DNA of 64,000 bases, from IMG/VR virus record IMGVR_UViG_3300011254_000489, positions 1 through 64,000 of that record. One strand, written 5' to 3'. Both the position numbers and the translations under genes were made by a program. This document shows, piece by piece, positions 55,189-61,848 of this stretch. The notes beneath the pieces are model-generated. The model did not search any database and had not been told where the DNA came from. It worked only from the letters and a program-made list of their open reading frames with translations. Numbering within the stretch: the stretch's first letter is position 1; each line of letters starts with the position of its first letter. The stretch comes from a virus.

Positions 55189-55404
55189 TCAAGCCTCCAT
55201 ACCATTAACACTAACCATGTTAGCAAATTCCCATTGATGGAACATTTCATGTCCACCAATAAAACCACCTGCTTCTCTAATAGGCCCAATAAATTGTGCA
55301 GAACAAATTTGACAATACACCATTACTATTCTTTCATCAATATGTGAACCTACTTTTGTTTCGTAAGAAATTATTTTTCCTATATCTTTTTCTGTATAAG
55401 TCAT
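55189..55404 (-). CDS. Small zinc-finger protein next to JAMM gene
   Basis: 71 residues. C-Q-I-C near residues 31-34 and H-E-M-F-H near 52-56 make a C2H2-type site. Its start overlaps the JAMM stop by 4 bases, so it may be linked in function with that protease. Confidence 0.55.
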   Translation of the reverse strand: MTYTEKDIGKIISYETKVGSHIDERIVMVYCQICSAQFIGPIREAGGFIGGHEMFHQWEFANMVSVNGMEA

Positions 55405-55946
55405 TCTTCTTCCCCTCCAATAAAACCTTTATTCATGTGTTGAATTCTTGTTGAGAATTCGTCAATACTTTCGTAGGTAATTATCTTTAGTAGTTCGGGT
55501 AGTTTATTACTCCAAACTCCATAATGGTCATACCCACCTAGAACATAGGCGGATTCCATCTTGGCTCCCCAAATTCTAATTGTTCTCCAATCAACCCCAC
55601 TGAAATAAGCACTACCGAAAGGATGCGTATGTATCCAACACTTAATCGGTAACTTCATCCCTACAGGGTTAATTTGAAAATCAACATAGCCCGATGAACC
55701 ACTAGAAATATGTAGATTCCAATTAGCATCAACTACTACCTGTACTTCTAAGTTAGGCAATATCACTGTAGACGCTTCCCAAATCGCTGAATGGAATGTG
55801 GTGTGTTTTATTATTTCTTCACCGTCTTGGTTTATTAACATCTCATCAAAGACTCCTTGAATGTAAGGCTCAACTAAACCTCTTAATTCCTGTAGATGTT
55901 TCGCTTTTAGCAATTCAACTGAATTCATTGTTGTTCTACTACTCAT
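55401..55946 (-). CDS. JAMM (MPN+) metalloprotease, deubiquitinase-like
   Basis: 181 residues from the ATG at 55946, after GGAGGAATTTAAA. The JAMM zinc site is complete: H106-T-H108-P, then seven residues, S116-G-V-D119 (H-x-H-x7-S-x2-D). This is the catalytic motif of isopeptidases such as Rpn11, AMSH and archaeal or bacterial JAMM proteases that cut ubiquitin-like proteins from targets or process their tails. Transcribed with an E1-like gene (56119-56673), with a ubiquitin-like gene with C-terminal Gly-Gly at 59453-59659. It is not in the tail module, unlike the JAMM of lambda-type tail tip proteins. Confidence 0.85.
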   Translation of the reverse strand: MSSRTTMNSVELLKAKHLQELRGLVEPYIQGVFDEMLINQDGEEIIKHTTFHSAIWEASTVILPNLEVQVVVDANWNLHISSGSSGYVDFQINPVGMKLPIKCWIHTHPFGSAYFSGVDWRTIRIWGAKMESAYVLGGYDHYGVWSNKLPELLKIITYESIDEFSTRIQHMNKGFIGGEEE

Positions 55947-55947
55947 T

Positions 55948-56109
55948 TTAAATTCCTCCATTTAAAAAATAACCAAAATATAGAAGTGAAAGGACTCCTG
56001 CTGAAAACAAAAAACAAGTATAACAAGTGTAAATTAAAAGTATTCCAGTAGTAAATTCCTCTAAAGTTAGTTTTTTATTGTTTTCTGTTTCTATATCATA
56101 TACTCCCAT
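55948..56109 (-). CDS. Small membrane protein between E1-like and JAMM genes
   Basis: 53 residues from the ATG at 56109, preceded by GAGGTGATAAT. A hydrophobic stretch of about 25-30 residues forms the second half, with two Cys near its start. It ends a few bases before the JAMM start. Function unknown; the position makes it a candidate partner. Confidence 0.5.
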   Translation of the reverse strand: MGVYDIETENNKKLTLEEFTTGILLIYTCYTCFLFSAGVLSLLYFGYFLNGGI

Positions 56110-56118
56110 ATTATCACC

Positions 56119-56673
56119 TCAAACATTTATCACGGCAAAGCCGTTTACTTCTTCATCATTAAACCAACGCTGAATCCATTCAGCACCCATTCCTGCAATA
56201 GCAACCTGTAAGAAATGTACTCCTTCTGTAGAGCCATCCCATGAATCACCTTGACAGGAAAAACTACCATCCGGCCCTGCTAGCATAGTATCATACATTT
56301 TAGGGTCGGCCTTGTAGGATACATAGGCGGCGTTCCTTGCTTGGGAGCGAAGGTCTAGCCACGCTATGTTTGAACGGTATAGCATCCTTCGTGCGGATAG
56401 ATTATCCACACAACATACTACCAAATCATATCCTTGTATTTGCCCGTCTGTTAGGATAGGGAATTTACTTGGACTGATGGGATACCTCTTTTGTAGGGCC
56501 ATCACTTTCAATTCACCCACTTCATCTTCCGTGAAGTTTTGGTAAGGTAGGTTCTTTGTATCTACGGTGTCGGGGTCACTTACGCTAATCGTGTAAAGGC
56601 CCGTCTTATCTAGTAGTGGGATTAGAAAACTTCCAATTCCACCGGCTCCAATTATCAATATTTTTCTATTCAT
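56119..56673 (-). CDS. E1/ThiF/MoeB-like ubiquitin-activating enzyme
   Basis: 184 residues from the ATG at 56673, after GGAGGAATAAAA. The nucleotide-binding motif G9-A-G-G-I-G14, the S-D-P-D-T-V-D-x-x-N-L-P strand near 32-44 and V-D-N-L-S-A-R near 92 match E1-like adenylating enzymes. These activate the C-terminal Gly of ubiquitin-like proteins. The protein is shorter than ThiF/MoeB (about 240), without a clear C-x-x-C zinc site; S-C-Q-G near 142 is a candidate catalytic Cys. The downstream JAMM gene and the nearby ubiquitin-like gene suggest one system. Confidence 0.8.
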   Translation of the reverse strand: MNRKILIIGAGGIGSFLIPLLDKTGLYTISVSDPDTVDTKNLPYQNFTEDEVGELKVMALQKRYPISPSKFPILTDGQIQGYDLVVCCVDNLSARRMLYRSNIAWLDLRSQARNAAYVSYKADPKMYDTMLAGPDGSFSCQGDSWDGSTEGVHFLQVAIAGMGAEWIQRWFNDEEVNGFAVINV

Positions 56674-56932
56674 TTTTATTCCTCCAATCTTCAAATGCTG
56701 ATTGTGATTCTTTCATGGTATATGACATACTTATCATACTAGCAAGTCCTCTGTATAATTCATCTTGAATTGACGCATCAAACTGAGAAAACAGTGGGGC
56801 TAACATCATTCTAGTTGCCGTCACATAACAATTACATTCACGACAAACTCTATCTTCAAACTTAGTTAGAATCGGTTGAGGGTTATTCCCTTCCCAAGTC
56901 TCCATTTCTTTTTCACATATTTTACATTTCAT
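56666..56932 (-). CDS. Small zinc-binding protein between TFB and E1-like genes
   Basis: 88 residues. C-K-I-C near 3-6 and C-R-E-C near 31-34 form a zinc ribbon; a helical region follows. It overlaps the E1-like gene by 8 bases and follows the TFB gene by one base. No family recognised. Confidence 0.55.
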   Translation of the reverse strand: MKCKICEKEMETWEGNNPQPILTKFEDRVCRECNCYVTATRMMLAPLFSQFDASIQDELYRGLASMISMSYTMKESQSAFEDWRNKNE

Positions 56933-56933
56933 A

Positions 56934-57758
56934 TTACCATATCCATTGTGTTCCTTGTCCTTTTATTTCGGACTCTGTTTTACCTACTGTTCGTAGGAGT
57001 TTTTTTGTTGTATCTCTACAAGTGCGACTAGTCACACCTACAACATCACCAACTTCTTTTTGAGTTAGTTGTTTAAATTCGCAAAGATTTGCTATGTAGA
57101 GTATCCCCGCTACTGCGCTTTTATTTAGAGTAAGAGTACGCATTTCGTATTCCCTCTCAAAGAAGGAAAGTAACATACTACAGGTACTAGCAAAATACCT
57201 GTCCCCTAATTGAAGGGAATACTTCTCTACCAAAGAATCAAGAGATTGAATAAAGACTCCACTATTCTTAAAATGCTTTGAAATCTTCTTGGCTACTTTA
57301 GCAACCAACCTTTGGTTAGAGCCGTACTCAGCACAGACTTCTTTTAGAGTGAAGGGCAGATTTCTTTCCCTTAATACATAATACACCAAAGCACTAGCCC
57401 TATCTTCATAAGTAGATTGACTAAATATCCCTGCTCTAAAACAAGTCATGTAGGCGTTTTCTACTCTCTCCATTTGGCTCTTTGAATTAGTCAAAGAAGA
57501 CATTAACATTTTAGAGAAACCCAAACCTACATCAACATGGCTTCGCTTACCCCTTTCGTATCTATGAACGGGCCTAGAGCCTAGAGTTCTATCTCCATGC
57601 CTAATAATTTCTCCATCATGAGTAAATAGAGAAACCGTTTGGTCAAAGGGTTCAGTTACTACAATCAACCCACAGTCTTGACATTCCTTCTCGCCCATGT
57701 ATTCGTTGTACGAAAAAACAGTACTGTTACATTCAGTACAATTAATCAAGGTTCTCAC
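56934..57758 (-). CDS. Transcription factor B (TFIIB-like)
   Basis: 274 residues. The N-terminal zinc ribbon has C7-T-E-C10 and C26-Q-D-C29. A B-finger-like region follows (G-D-R-T-L-G-S-R-P near 55-65), then two cyclin-like repeats and a final helix-turn-helix (T-Q-K-E-V-G-D-V-V-G-V-T). TFB carries RNA polymerase to promoters with TBP in archaea. A viral copy may redirect host polymerase to viral promoters. No TBP gene was found. Confidence 0.85.
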   Translation of the reverse strand: MRTLINCTECNSTVFSYNEYMGEKECQDCGLIVVTEPFDQTVSLFTHDGEIIRHGDRTLGSRPVHRYERGKRSHVDVGLGFSKMLMSSLTNSKSQMERVENAYMTCFRAGIFSQSTYEDRASALVYYVLRERNLPFTLKEVCAEYGSNQRLVAKVAKKISKHFKNSGVFIQSLDSLVEKYSLQLGDRYFASTCSMLLSFFEREYEMRTLTLNKSAVAGILYIANLCEFKQLTQKEVGDVVGVTSRTCRDTTKKLLRTVGKTESEIKGQGTQWIW

Positions 57759-58959
57759 TCTCTACGGGTTCTACATATCTTTCTATGTGGTTAGCATAAG
57801 CAATTTCCAACCTACTGTTATCATCCACCAATTCAAAATTTATTCTATGTGAAGCAGAAGGAATACTCTTCATGGTAGAGACTCTTTGTTTAGTCATTCT
57901 GTCATTAATACAGACCAACAATCTAGTTACTAGTTGGTCATGTATAGGAGAATTGTTTTGAAGGTTATCAACACAAACTCCGTTCCATTTGTAGTCTCCT
58001 TCAAGAGATAAGAAAGCAGTTGATACCAATTGCCTACCCGACGATTTCCTATTACTATTCCAAGTGAATAACCAATCGTTATCTATTCCTTTGACTAGTA
58101 GATATTGTTCGCTTGTTTCTTTATCGCTCAACATCTTGACTTTATTCTTATACTTAGCAAGCGTTTGCTCTAACAAAATTTCTGCCCTATCTTCTATTAA
58201 TTTAGAAGTCCTATTCTGTTCTAAAAAGGCAATCATAACATCGGAGTCCGATTCAGTTATCTGCTTACCCATCAATAAGAAGTACAATTTTTGCGGCGAA
58301 AGAAATTTCCAAGAACCTCTATTGTGTCCATGTAAATAGTGTCCTAAATACTTAGACAAGTCTTTGAATGAAATAGTACCCCAAACAGAATCACTTATCT
58401 CTATGGCTACTTTATCATCACTTATTTGTTTAGCATTTAGTCTAACATTAACTCTTCTCCCGTTATTAAAGAAGTAATAGGGTACTCTATTTTCAAGAAC
58501 ATGGCTAATCTCGTAAGGAGTATTGCATATCCTGTAGAATAACATCATCGTTTCCGACCTACTCATGTCATTATTTACACGGTAGAGGAATCTAGATAGA
58601 TTGTAGAAAATCTCTCTCTTAGTACCCTTCAAACCATTAATAGAAATTGGTGTTTCGTTGGTTACTATAACTGAGAAGTCGTTTATTACAAATTCTAGAT
58701 AGTCCTTTGGACTATTAGTTATGTCTCTCATCATTCCTTTAATTTTTTCAGCAAAAGAGACTATTAAAGAATCTAGTGAGGTATTTACTTGGTTCGCCCT
58801 ACCATTAAAGTAGTGAGTAACAGTACTTGCATGTCCATTCCGTATAATTTGAACAGTTCCCCGTATAATTTTCTTCTCTCGGTACTGGCCGTCACTGTGT
58901 AAGGGGAGTTCTAGGCTTTTTTTCTCTGTATTATAATTTATAATTGTTGATTCGGTCAT
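57742..58959 (-). CDS. Large protein of unknown function upstream of TFB
   Basis: 405 residues. It overlaps the TFB start by 17 bases. Mixed alpha/beta, without visible Cys cluster or nucleotide-binding motif; H-Y-L-H-G-H-N near 208 is the most notable His-rich spot. No family recognised. Since it lies in the same operon as TFB and the E1-like gene, it may be a transcription or takeover factor. Confidence 0.6.
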   Translation of the reverse strand: MTESTIINYNTEKKSLELPLHSDGQYREKKIIRGTVQIIRNGHASTVTHYFNGRANQVNTSLDSLIVSFAEKIKGMMRDITNSPKDYLEFVINDFSVIVTNETPISINGLKGTKREIFYNLSRFLYRVNNDMSRSETMMLFYRICNTPYEISHVLENRVPYYFFNNGRRVNVRLNAKQISDDKVAIEISDSVWGTISFKDLSKYLGHYLHGHNRGSWKFLSPQKLYFLLMGKQITESDSDVMIAFLEQNRTSKLIEDRAEILLEQTLAKYKNKVKMLSDKETSEQYLLVKGIDNDWLFTWNSNRKSSGRQLVSTAFLSLEGDYKWNGVCVDNLQNNSPIHDQLVTRLLVCINDRMTKQRVSTMKSIPSASHRINFELVDDNSRLEIAYANHIERYVEPVESENLD

Positions 58960-58963
58960 ATTA

Positions 58964-59122
58964 TCACATCATTCTCATTTTTGTTTTGTAATTGTTTACA
59001 CATTCTTCATGTGCTTCTATTTTCATATCTTGTGGAGTTAGTAAAGAGCCTCCACAAACTCTGCATTTTGTCGCTATCTTGCGACCTCTTGAATTGTCTG
59101 TATAGTTTGGATTGTTTGACAT
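58964..59122 (-). CDS. Small zinc-finger protein
   Basis: 52 residues with C-R-V-C near 20-23 and H-E-E-C near 38-41, a probable single zinc site. Packed between larger genes. No family recognised. Confidence 0.5.
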   Translation of the reverse strand: MSNNPNYTDNSRGRKIATKCRVCGGSLLTPQDMKIEAHEECVNNYKTKMRMM

Positions 59123-59124
59123 AT

Positions 59125-59406
59125 TTAACCCTCTAATTTATTTACTTCGTGGTATTTAACATATACATCAAAATCTTTAATGTATTTTGCTAAGTATTGG
59201 TTAAACCCAATAGTCACGGCTTCATCAATATCAAAAAGATAATTCTTTAATTTAGAATTTAAGAAGAAGACTTGTTCTTTTTCGTCGTCAATCAACAACG
59301 AATGTCGTAGTGCCGTCTCAACGAATAATTGCCCCTCCACCGATAACATAGGTAGAAGTGACTTAACTACTGCTCTACAATGAGCAAAGTTACGATAGAG
59401 GGGCAT
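59125..59406 (-). CDS. Small helical protein
   Basis: 93 residues from the ATG at 59406; a GTG at 59415 is an alternative. Helical with alternating hydrophobic residues, and a C-terminal F-D-V-Y-V-K-Y-H-E-V-N. No family recognised. Confidence 0.5.
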   Translation of the reverse strand: MPLYRNFAHCRAVVKSLLPMLSVEGQLFVETALRHSLLIDDEKEQVFFLNSKLKNYLFDIDEAVTIGFNQYLAKYIKDFDVYVKYHEVNKLEG

Positions 59407-59452
59407 AAGCACCACGGTTTAAGGGATGGTTTTATTCATCAACAAGGGGGGT

Positions 59453-59659
59453 TCAACAGGAACCTCCAACAATAGCAGGAGTCAAGTCCACGCTACTAAC
59501 AGTATCCCAATTGATTGTGTTAATGTCTTGGCGGCTTACCATCTCACCATCAACGAAAACCCAATGTGTGGGGTGTGTTTCAATTTGTTCTACAACCTTC
59601 TCTACTGAGAGTTGCAATTCAGTGTGTCCTGTTTCATTTAAAATCGTTAGTGTAATCAT
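59453..59659 (-). CDS. Ubiquitin-like (beta-grasp) protein with C-terminal Gly-Gly
   Basis: 68 residues from the ATG at 59659, after GAGGTGAATTAAA. The order strand (M-I-T-L-T-I-L), strand (T-E-L-Q-L-S-V), helix (E-K-V-V-E-Q-I), strand (W-V-F-V-D-G-E), then D-T-V-S-S-V-D-L-T fits a beta-grasp fold of ubiquitin or ThiS/MoaD type. It ends V-G65-G66-S-C, a Gly-Gly followed by two extra residues, as in ubiquitin-like precursors that are trimmed by a protease. An E1-like gene and a JAMM protease gene lie 3-4 kb downstream in the same transcription direction. Confidence 0.65.
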   Translation of the reverse strand: MITLTILNETGHTELQLSVEKVVEQIETHPTHWVFVDGEMVSRQDINTINWDTVSSVDLTPAIVGGSC

Positions 59660-61680: not shown

Positions 61681-61767
61681 TGGTGTCGGAGGCAGGATTT
61701 GAACCTGCGAATCAATATGAACAGGAGTTTAAGCCCTGCGCCTTTGACCAAACTCGGCTACTCCGAC
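61681..61767 (-). tRNA. tRNA-Leu (anticodon TAA)
   Basis: Cloverleaf with acceptor stem GTCGGAG/CTCCGAC, anticodon loop CTTAAAC within stem CAGGG/TCCTG, long variable arm as in tRNA-Leu, T-loop GGTTCAAATCC, and encoded CCA at the 3' end (61681-61683). Reads UUA, one of the most used Leu codons here. Confidence 0.9.
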
Positions 61768-61773
61768 TTGAAT

Positions 61774-61848
61774 TGGCGGGCATAACAGGAATTGAACCCG
61801 TATCTTCGGCTTAGAAGGCCAAAATGCTATCCATTACACCATATGCCC
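61774..61848 (-). tRNA. tRNA-Arg (anticodon TCT)
   Basis: Cloverleaf with acceptor stem GGGCATA/TATGCCC, anticodon loop CTTCTAA, T-loop GGTTCAATTCC and encoded CCA at 61774-61776. Reads AGA, the dominant Arg codon of these genes. The 5' 15 bases overlap the end of the gene 61834-62085. Confidence 0.9.

Follow-up and report, generated by a model that had tools for sequence, protein, structure and literature searches.

Gene sets that pair a ubiquitin-like modifier (Ubl) with an E1 activating enzyme and a JAB/JAMM metalloprotease have been described from several prokaryotic sources. PRTRC operons (NCBIfam PRTRC proteins, similar to operon type 6d of Iyer et al., 2006, PMC1779556) carry a Ubl, an E1, a JAB and an E2-like protein on mobile DNA, and bacterial operon types 6a-6e share a related logic (PMC1779556). 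In archaea, the SAMP/UbaA/HvJAMM system likewise combines a Gly-Gly Ubl, an E1 and a JAMM protease, with a conjugation described as E2-independent (review, PMC11354881), and the Caldiarchaeum cassette (PMC5654768) encodes Ubl, E1, E2 and deubiquitinase together. Makarova and Koonin (2010, PMC2948915) reported no archaeal E2 and found JAB genes only rarely beside Ubl genes. The same E1-E2-JAB logic is seen in Bil and in CBASS Cap2/Cap3, and crAss-like phages (crAss001 gp76/gp77; DAC15), which are also tailed prokaryotic viruses, have an E1 (ThiF) adjoining a Prok-JAB. Here we analyze a set of this kind in the 87-kb IMG/VR virus record IMGVR_UViG_3300011254_000489, whose positions 1-64,000 make up the stretch studied (the window, 64,000 nucleotides). 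Our best reading is that it represents a complete Ubl conjugation and deconjugation set, common to magrovirus-like viruses and Poseidoniales archaea, that is kin to PRTRC and SAMP without belonging to either.

The original prediction proposed that a 68-residue beta-grasp protein, an E1/ThiF-like enzyme and a JAMM protease form a ubiquitin-like set, and all three genes lie where it placed them, on the minus strand (Table 1). However, the set is larger than these three: it also contains a 405-residue E2-like protein (E2L) and usually a small zinc finger, and it has counterparts in Poseidoniales operons. The observation is confirmed, and is stronger than first stated, with its interpretation supported. 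Of the three outcomes named in advance as refuting it, none came about: the 68-residue protein is predicted to have the beta-grasp fold, its Gly-Gly is conserved in homologues, and the three genes occur together in relatives. Since nearly all relatives examined keep the set and many Poseidoniales have a related version, the genes give the impression of a functional system for tagging proteins more than of a random grouping, and we consider it quite probable that the virus encodes ubiquitin-like modification. The claim that nothing of the sort had been described in an archaeal virus holds for the Ubl, E2-like and JAB partners, for which we found no report, but not for the E1, because a ThiF/MoeB-family gene is listed as one of the auxiliary genes met most often in predicted archaeal viruses, with ubiquitination mentioned (PMC8276007). 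In the open-licence PMC literature, we came across no description of the set, either viral or host; for the virus, the E1 alone had been noted, and for one MGII single-cell genome a survey from 2014 speaks of RING and UCH genes (PMC4327156).

Table 1. Features of the Ubl locus and its surroundings (positions are those of the window).
Feature	Position	Strand	Remarks
JAB/JAMM metalloprotease (E72, H111, H113, S121, D124)	55401..55961	minus	Motif and family profile
Hydrophobic peptide, 53 residues, probably membrane-spanning	55948..56109	minus	Sequence
E1/ThiF-like activating enzyme	56119..56673	minus	Pfam ThiF E=1.6e-16, above cut-off
Cys-rich zinc-ribbon-like protein, 88 residues, CxxC..CxxC	56666..56932	minus	Sequence; no family match
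TFIIB-like transcription factor (TFB)	56934..57758	minus	NCBIfam TFIIB E=2.9e-13; between E2L and E1
E2L, 405 residues	57742..58959	minus	Invariant Cys329 in C-terminal domain (core 57862-58194)
Zinc-finger candidate, 52 residues, CxxC..HxxxC	58964..59122	minus	Directly upstream of E2L
Conserved 96-residue protein	59125..59415	minus	No Pfam match; between Ubl and zinc finger; homologues in same place in L001-L005
Ubl, 68 residues, C-terminus ..PAIVGG-SC	59453..59659	minus	Gly65-Gly66 invariant in relatives, tail variable
tRNA-Leu (TAA) and tRNA-Arg (TCT) genes	61681-61848	minus	

Comparison with the known systems reveals both kinship and differences. The viral E1 is homologous over its full length to the PRTRC ThiF of a Sphingomonas plasmid (hhalign Prob 98.4, E 7.8e-15), as is the viral JAB to PRTRC JAB, or protein A, from the same source (E 2.7e-5). 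In contrast, no similarity was detectable between the Ubl and PRTRC C or between E2L and PRTRC B when single PRTRC sequences were compared. The PRTRC Ubl compared ends in TKG whereas the viral one ends in GG, and the viral set showed no sign of a ParB, E or F partner. We rejected membership in PRTRC because the homology extends to E1 and JAB but not detectably to the Ubl and E2-like protein. The viral E1 is also not of the UbaA type, scoring 33.7 bits against a model cut-off of 450. The Caldiarchaeum E1 and E2 are recognizably eukaryote-like, whereas E2L matches no E2 family and the viral E1 is of a minimal ThiF type. Although the E1 profile matches Cap2 in the Protein Data Bank (PDB), the viral set differs from Bil and CBASS in having a separate short E1 and its own Gly-Gly Ubl, and in that no nucleotidyltransferase was seen. 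The crAss-like E1s are 28-29% identical to the viral E1, and tblastn against a phage collection returned distant E1s only, with no homologues of Ubl, E2L or JAB. At two crAss-like loci (L331:3259-5657 and L329:3551-5660), a Prok-JAB gene lies beside that of a ThiF protein which has an additional domain at its N-terminus; the crAss-like pair is a possible parallel system in gut phages.

The predicted trio co-occurs in about 100 related viral genomes practically without exception. Matching stretches numbered 160 for E1, 222 for JAB, 171 for Ubl and 96 for the 405-residue E2L, and the best 80 of each were taken; these loci overlap in contigs, and partners were counted only where the flank was long enough. 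From the Ubl side, the partners are present in 75/75, 71/71 and 70/71 loci, and the single locus lacking a JAB (L281) is on a contig that has one elsewhere (L208). The counts from the JAB side are 58/58, 54/54 and 50/50, and the picture is the same from the E1 and E2L sides. All 252 loci with four genes, which include 108 distinct E1 sequences, keep the order Ubl-E2L-E1-JAB (252/252). Identity among the viral E1s falls to 45%, with the motif residues conserved throughout. Two other sets of loci deserve comment. In the 184,733-base record IMGVR_UViG_3300021958_000021 (L026, L122, L194, L317, L320), the Ubl set occurs twice, with about 93 kb between the copies, and the record is probably two genomes joined in assembly. 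The two top cellular matches, L332 and L333 from a Maricaulis metagenome-assembled genome, look like magrovirus-like contigs misbinned with a bacterium, because they carry viral-type E2L, E1 and JAB.

The beta-grasp assignment of the 68-residue protein was borne out by modeling. The AlphaFold2 model, built from 46 sequences, has a mean pLDDT of 87 and the element order of ubiquitin (beta-beta-alpha-beta-beta-helix-beta), and the PDB structures that it matches best are for the most part ubiquitin, ISG15, NEDD8, SUMO and MoaD. The match scores are moderate (probability up to 0.96, TM ~0.45, E ~0.01); family searches gave no significant match to sequence families, and a direct PDB sequence search gave no useful one. 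A ubiquitin-type beta-grasp fold is a prediction of the model. The Gly-Gly end is found in 97/97 distinct C-termini of viral homologues, followed by zero, one or two residues of nearly any kind, or by eight in one virus. An invariant Gly-Gly with a free tail is what one would expect if the Gly-Gly end is processed or activated. (A 93-residue tail in one supposed Ubl was spurious, arising from translation read upstream of the start codon.)

The original prediction further held that a protease must trim this tail. That idea suits the viruses whose Ubl has a tail, but it fails as a general rule: 22 distinct viral Ubls, about a fifth, stop exactly at Gly-Gly, and the JAB is kept in 22/22. Because the protease is retained where nothing follows Gly-Gly, trimming is not its sole task, which points to deconjugation as well as trimming.

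Both enzymes have conserved active sites. The E1 has a Rossmann ATP-binding core with GxGGxG and catalytic D/K residues, as indicated by the Pfam match and by conservation, and its invariant residues are GAGGIGS, D, D, K, D and the Cys of SCQ. It does not have the Arg of the NLxRQ motif, reading NLxYQ in most viruses and having His or Tyr at this position in hosts. Its profile matches UBA5, UBA3 (the NEDD8 E1) and MoeB in the PDB in addition to Cap2. The window JAB by itself matches Prok-JAB weakly, below cut-off (E=0.036), but 39/41 JAB homologues match that family (best E 1.9e-5), and the JAB family profile, run against the PDB, picks up deubiquitinases of the AMSH type (E=1.6e-4). The JAMM site, a Glu plus the HxHx7Sx2D claimed for the protease, is complete in 134/134 distinct homologues.

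The fourth component is E2L. Its Cys is invariant in 126/126 distinct viral homologues, in the context GxICIDN followed by a helix GDQxxxRxLxLxND, and the residues G, C, D and D are invariant across virus, Poseidoniales and Methanoperedens. The model (pLDDT 80) shows a C-terminal domain of helix, strands, Cys and helix, as in E2 enzymes. The weak PDB matches returned by Foldseek include UFC1 and one chain of the BRCA1-A complex; among viral models, Foldseek finds viral E2s with probabilities of 0.80 and 0.44 (the best, 0.80, at E=0.1). A direct PDB sequence search gave nothing useful, and Prok-E2_B was sought in the virus and not found. When E2L was aligned by hhalign with four human E2s, Cys fell on Cys, in register, with p 0.005-0.018; PRTRC B, an accepted prokaryotic E2-like protein, did not outscore it on these E2s (p 0.041).

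We lean toward E2L being an E2 enzyme. A tentative alternative is that the 405-residue protein is some other partner, such as a degenerate zinc-binding SWIM-like domain, a substrate or an adaptor. The weakness of the E2 similarity favors this idea, and so does a V-x-G-x-SG-x2-Y-x-I pattern followed by C-I, which we take to be reminiscent of SWIM domains. Against it stands the in-register alignment itself, which scores 19.3 compared to 16.0 for 60 column-shuffled decoys. The SWIM version in particular is disfavored, with a single invariant Cys, the other SWIM ligands absent and no Pfam SWIM match.

A small zinc-finger open reading frame (ORF) lies directly upstream of the viral E2L in 104/125 distinct loci. 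Because host E2L proteins have a CxxC..CxxC domain at their own N-terminus, their sequences suggest that the viral zinc finger and E2L are a split form of the host protein.

Scanning GTDB genomes with the E1 profile uncovered relatives in Poseidoniales and in Methanoperedens-type archaea. Adjacent E2L-Ubl-E1-JAB genes occur in four Poseidoniales loci (L347, L349, L350, L440), and other orders are E2L-E2L-Ubl-E1-JAB (L439) and Ubl-E2L-E1-JAB (L445). By reading of translations, the L347 operon is flanked by enolase, aspartate aminotransferase and ribonucleotide reductase genes, and the E1-JAB pair of L341 and L336 lies in one common chromosomal neighbourhood. The E2L of the host is homologous to that of the virus (hhalign Prob 98.3, E 1.5e-14). 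Host Ubls as a rule end in GG plus zero or one residue, with one long tail in L439; a weaker match, L451, has a Ubl end without Gly-Gly. E1 and JAB are fused in five loci (L438, L444, L448, L449, L450). In two others (L442, L443), Ubl, Ubl and E1 form one polyprotein in which each Ubl ends LVPGLVGG ahead of the next domain, and with a JAB gene adjoining, this sequence arrangement is what would be predicted for a JAB that cuts at Gly-Gly. Among 244 Poseidoniales genomes, 115 have the JAB, 121 E2L, 105 both and 113 neither (Fisher p=6e-39, uncorrected for kinship), E2L often being on another contig. In the E1 tree, a viral clade (100/100), a Poseidoniales clade (99/97) and a third, Methanoperedens group meet by long branches. 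These clades indicate that the viral set is an old viral lineage, kept as one, and therefore not a recent pick-up by a single virus, insofar as the sequences can tell.

Several host neighbourhoods have further genes of interest. In Thalassarchaeum, one cluster (L352:271-8203) holds two Ubls, three E2L, a TFB (TFIIB 5e-29), an AAA ATPase and an E1, together with a 46-residue hydrophobic ORF comparable to the viral hydrophobic peptide. A TFIIB zinc ribbon lies near the L448 operon. In the Methanoperedens type (L342:5758-9348, L345:5860-9402, L351:5755-9342), the E1 follows right behind a protein of about 710-740 residues with the E2L domain; a protein ending KGKGG comes next, and ligase-like and primase-like genes are near. 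This arrangement may be a version that belongs to a mobile element and has a Gly-Gly protein to itself. Genes for single-subunit (T7/mitochondrial-type) RNA polymerases lie near the Ubl operon at L439:198-4112 (+) and L445:7276-9999 (+), with PF00940 scores of 158 and 82 bits, respectively; they are unexpected in archaea and are possibly part of a mobile element.

The host operons raise the question of counter-defence. The Poseidoniales operon could be antiviral, as CBASS and Bil are, in which case the viral JAB would strip tags and the viral E1, E2L and Ubl would compete with host parts. The patchy host distribution of the JAB, with frequent fusion or duplication of the operon, is compatible with this proposal, and ubiquitin-like conjugation by a bacterial cGAS is reported to strengthen defence against phages (PMC10097602). 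However, a pure antagonist need not keep the conjugate-making residues, and the viral set keeps all catalytic residues in effectively all genomes. Nor were defence genes recognised next to the host operons, in the few neighbourhoods read and without a dedicated defence-library search. We consider counter-defence unlikely.

The main biochemical rival to conjugation is sulfur transfer, in which the E1 would adenylate the Ubl to give a thiocarboxylate for thiolation or biosynthesis, the JAB would release the product as Mec does with CysO, and the Cys protein would be a sulfurtransferase. In its favor, the E1 finds its best NCBIfam matches in ThiF and MoeB, ThiS is the one beta-grasp family that any Ubl members reach (2/46, best E 0.0076), and the virus encodes two tRNAs. 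As the original prediction held, though, no thiamine or molybdopterin gene explains the pair: MoaE, ThiG, rhodanese and ATP_bind_3 (tRNA thiolation) were sought across the 87-kb record, which is possibly incomplete, and none was found, although enzymes of the host could take their place. Conjugation is also the better fit for the host Ubl-Ubl-E1 polyprotein with its adjoining JAB and for the several E2L paralogues per cluster. Because no MoaE, ThiG, rhodanese or thiolase is in the record, sulfur transfer is less likely than conjugation, and we regard it as improbable. A structural role in virion assembly, like that of lambda-type TAPI (Ubl) and TAPK (JAB), has in its favor that Ubl and JAB pairs are known from phage tail gene clusters (PMC1779556). 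It is nevertheless very improbable, since the TAPI/TAPK clusters are not described with an E1, and the set here lies on the minus strand with replication and transcription genes, apart from the plus-strand capsid and tail tube genes.

Several points nevertheless weigh against a virus-encoded modification system. Its support (genes, catalytic motifs, Ubl fold, Gly-Gly, co-occurrence, host homologues and fusions) comes from sequence and models. The likeness of E2L to known E2s is weak: it matches no Pfam E2 family and is without an HPN-type motif. The E1 has no separate Cys domain and has Tyr where Arg is usual. Within the viruses, co-occurrence taken by itself might stem from a conserved genome core, whose genes occur together anyway, and for this reason the host data are the stronger evidence, although the Fisher test ignores the shared ancestry of the 244 genomes.

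Taking conjugation as the preferred reading, we infer each enzymatic step, along with the E2 identity and the purpose, as follows. Where a tail is present, the JAB would cut the Ubl behind Gly-Gly. The E1 would adenylate the freed Gly-Gly and hold the Ubl as a (thio)ester, from which it would be handed to Cys329 of E2L. E2L would then join the Ubl to an amino group of target proteins, perhaps assisted by the zinc-finger protein encoded beside it, and the JAB would afterwards take the Ubl off again. Because TFB genes turn up repeatedly within the cluster or next to it, our guess is that the system serves to modify viral or host proteins of transcription and replication.

The rest of the record gives the setting. 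It encodes a B-family DNA polymerase (PolB), an RFC small subunit, ATP-dependent ligases, a TCP-1/cpn60 chaperonin, PD-(D/E)XK and ERCC4 nucleases, a large terminase, an SU10-type capsid protein and a tail tube, and its structural and replication modules are transcribed in opposite directions. From this gene content, compared with a published magrovirus gene profile (PMC12999244), we tentatively assign the record to tailed archaeal viruses of the magrovirus kind. Its host is probably a member of the marine Poseidoniales. A tRNA-Arg-TCT is known from another magrovirus (PMC5628999); host assignment by the viral tRNA-Arg matched one of 116 Poseidoniales genomes, at 83%, and does not fix the host.

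Taken together, these observations raise an about even prospect that the set is a complete E1-E2-Ubl-deconjugase cascade, a new family with a deeply divergent E2 that is core to a major group of ocean archaeal viruses and to their Poseidoniales hosts. If this is true, it would be, to our knowledge, the first complete ubiquitin-like conjugation set reported from an archaeal virus. The host operons would place an E2-like enzyme in Euryarchaeota-type archaea, and E2-based conjugation would then exist where conjugation has been described as E2-free. With a small system that makes clear biochemical predictions, the origin of the ubiquitin cascade and viral protein tagging in archaea would become testable.

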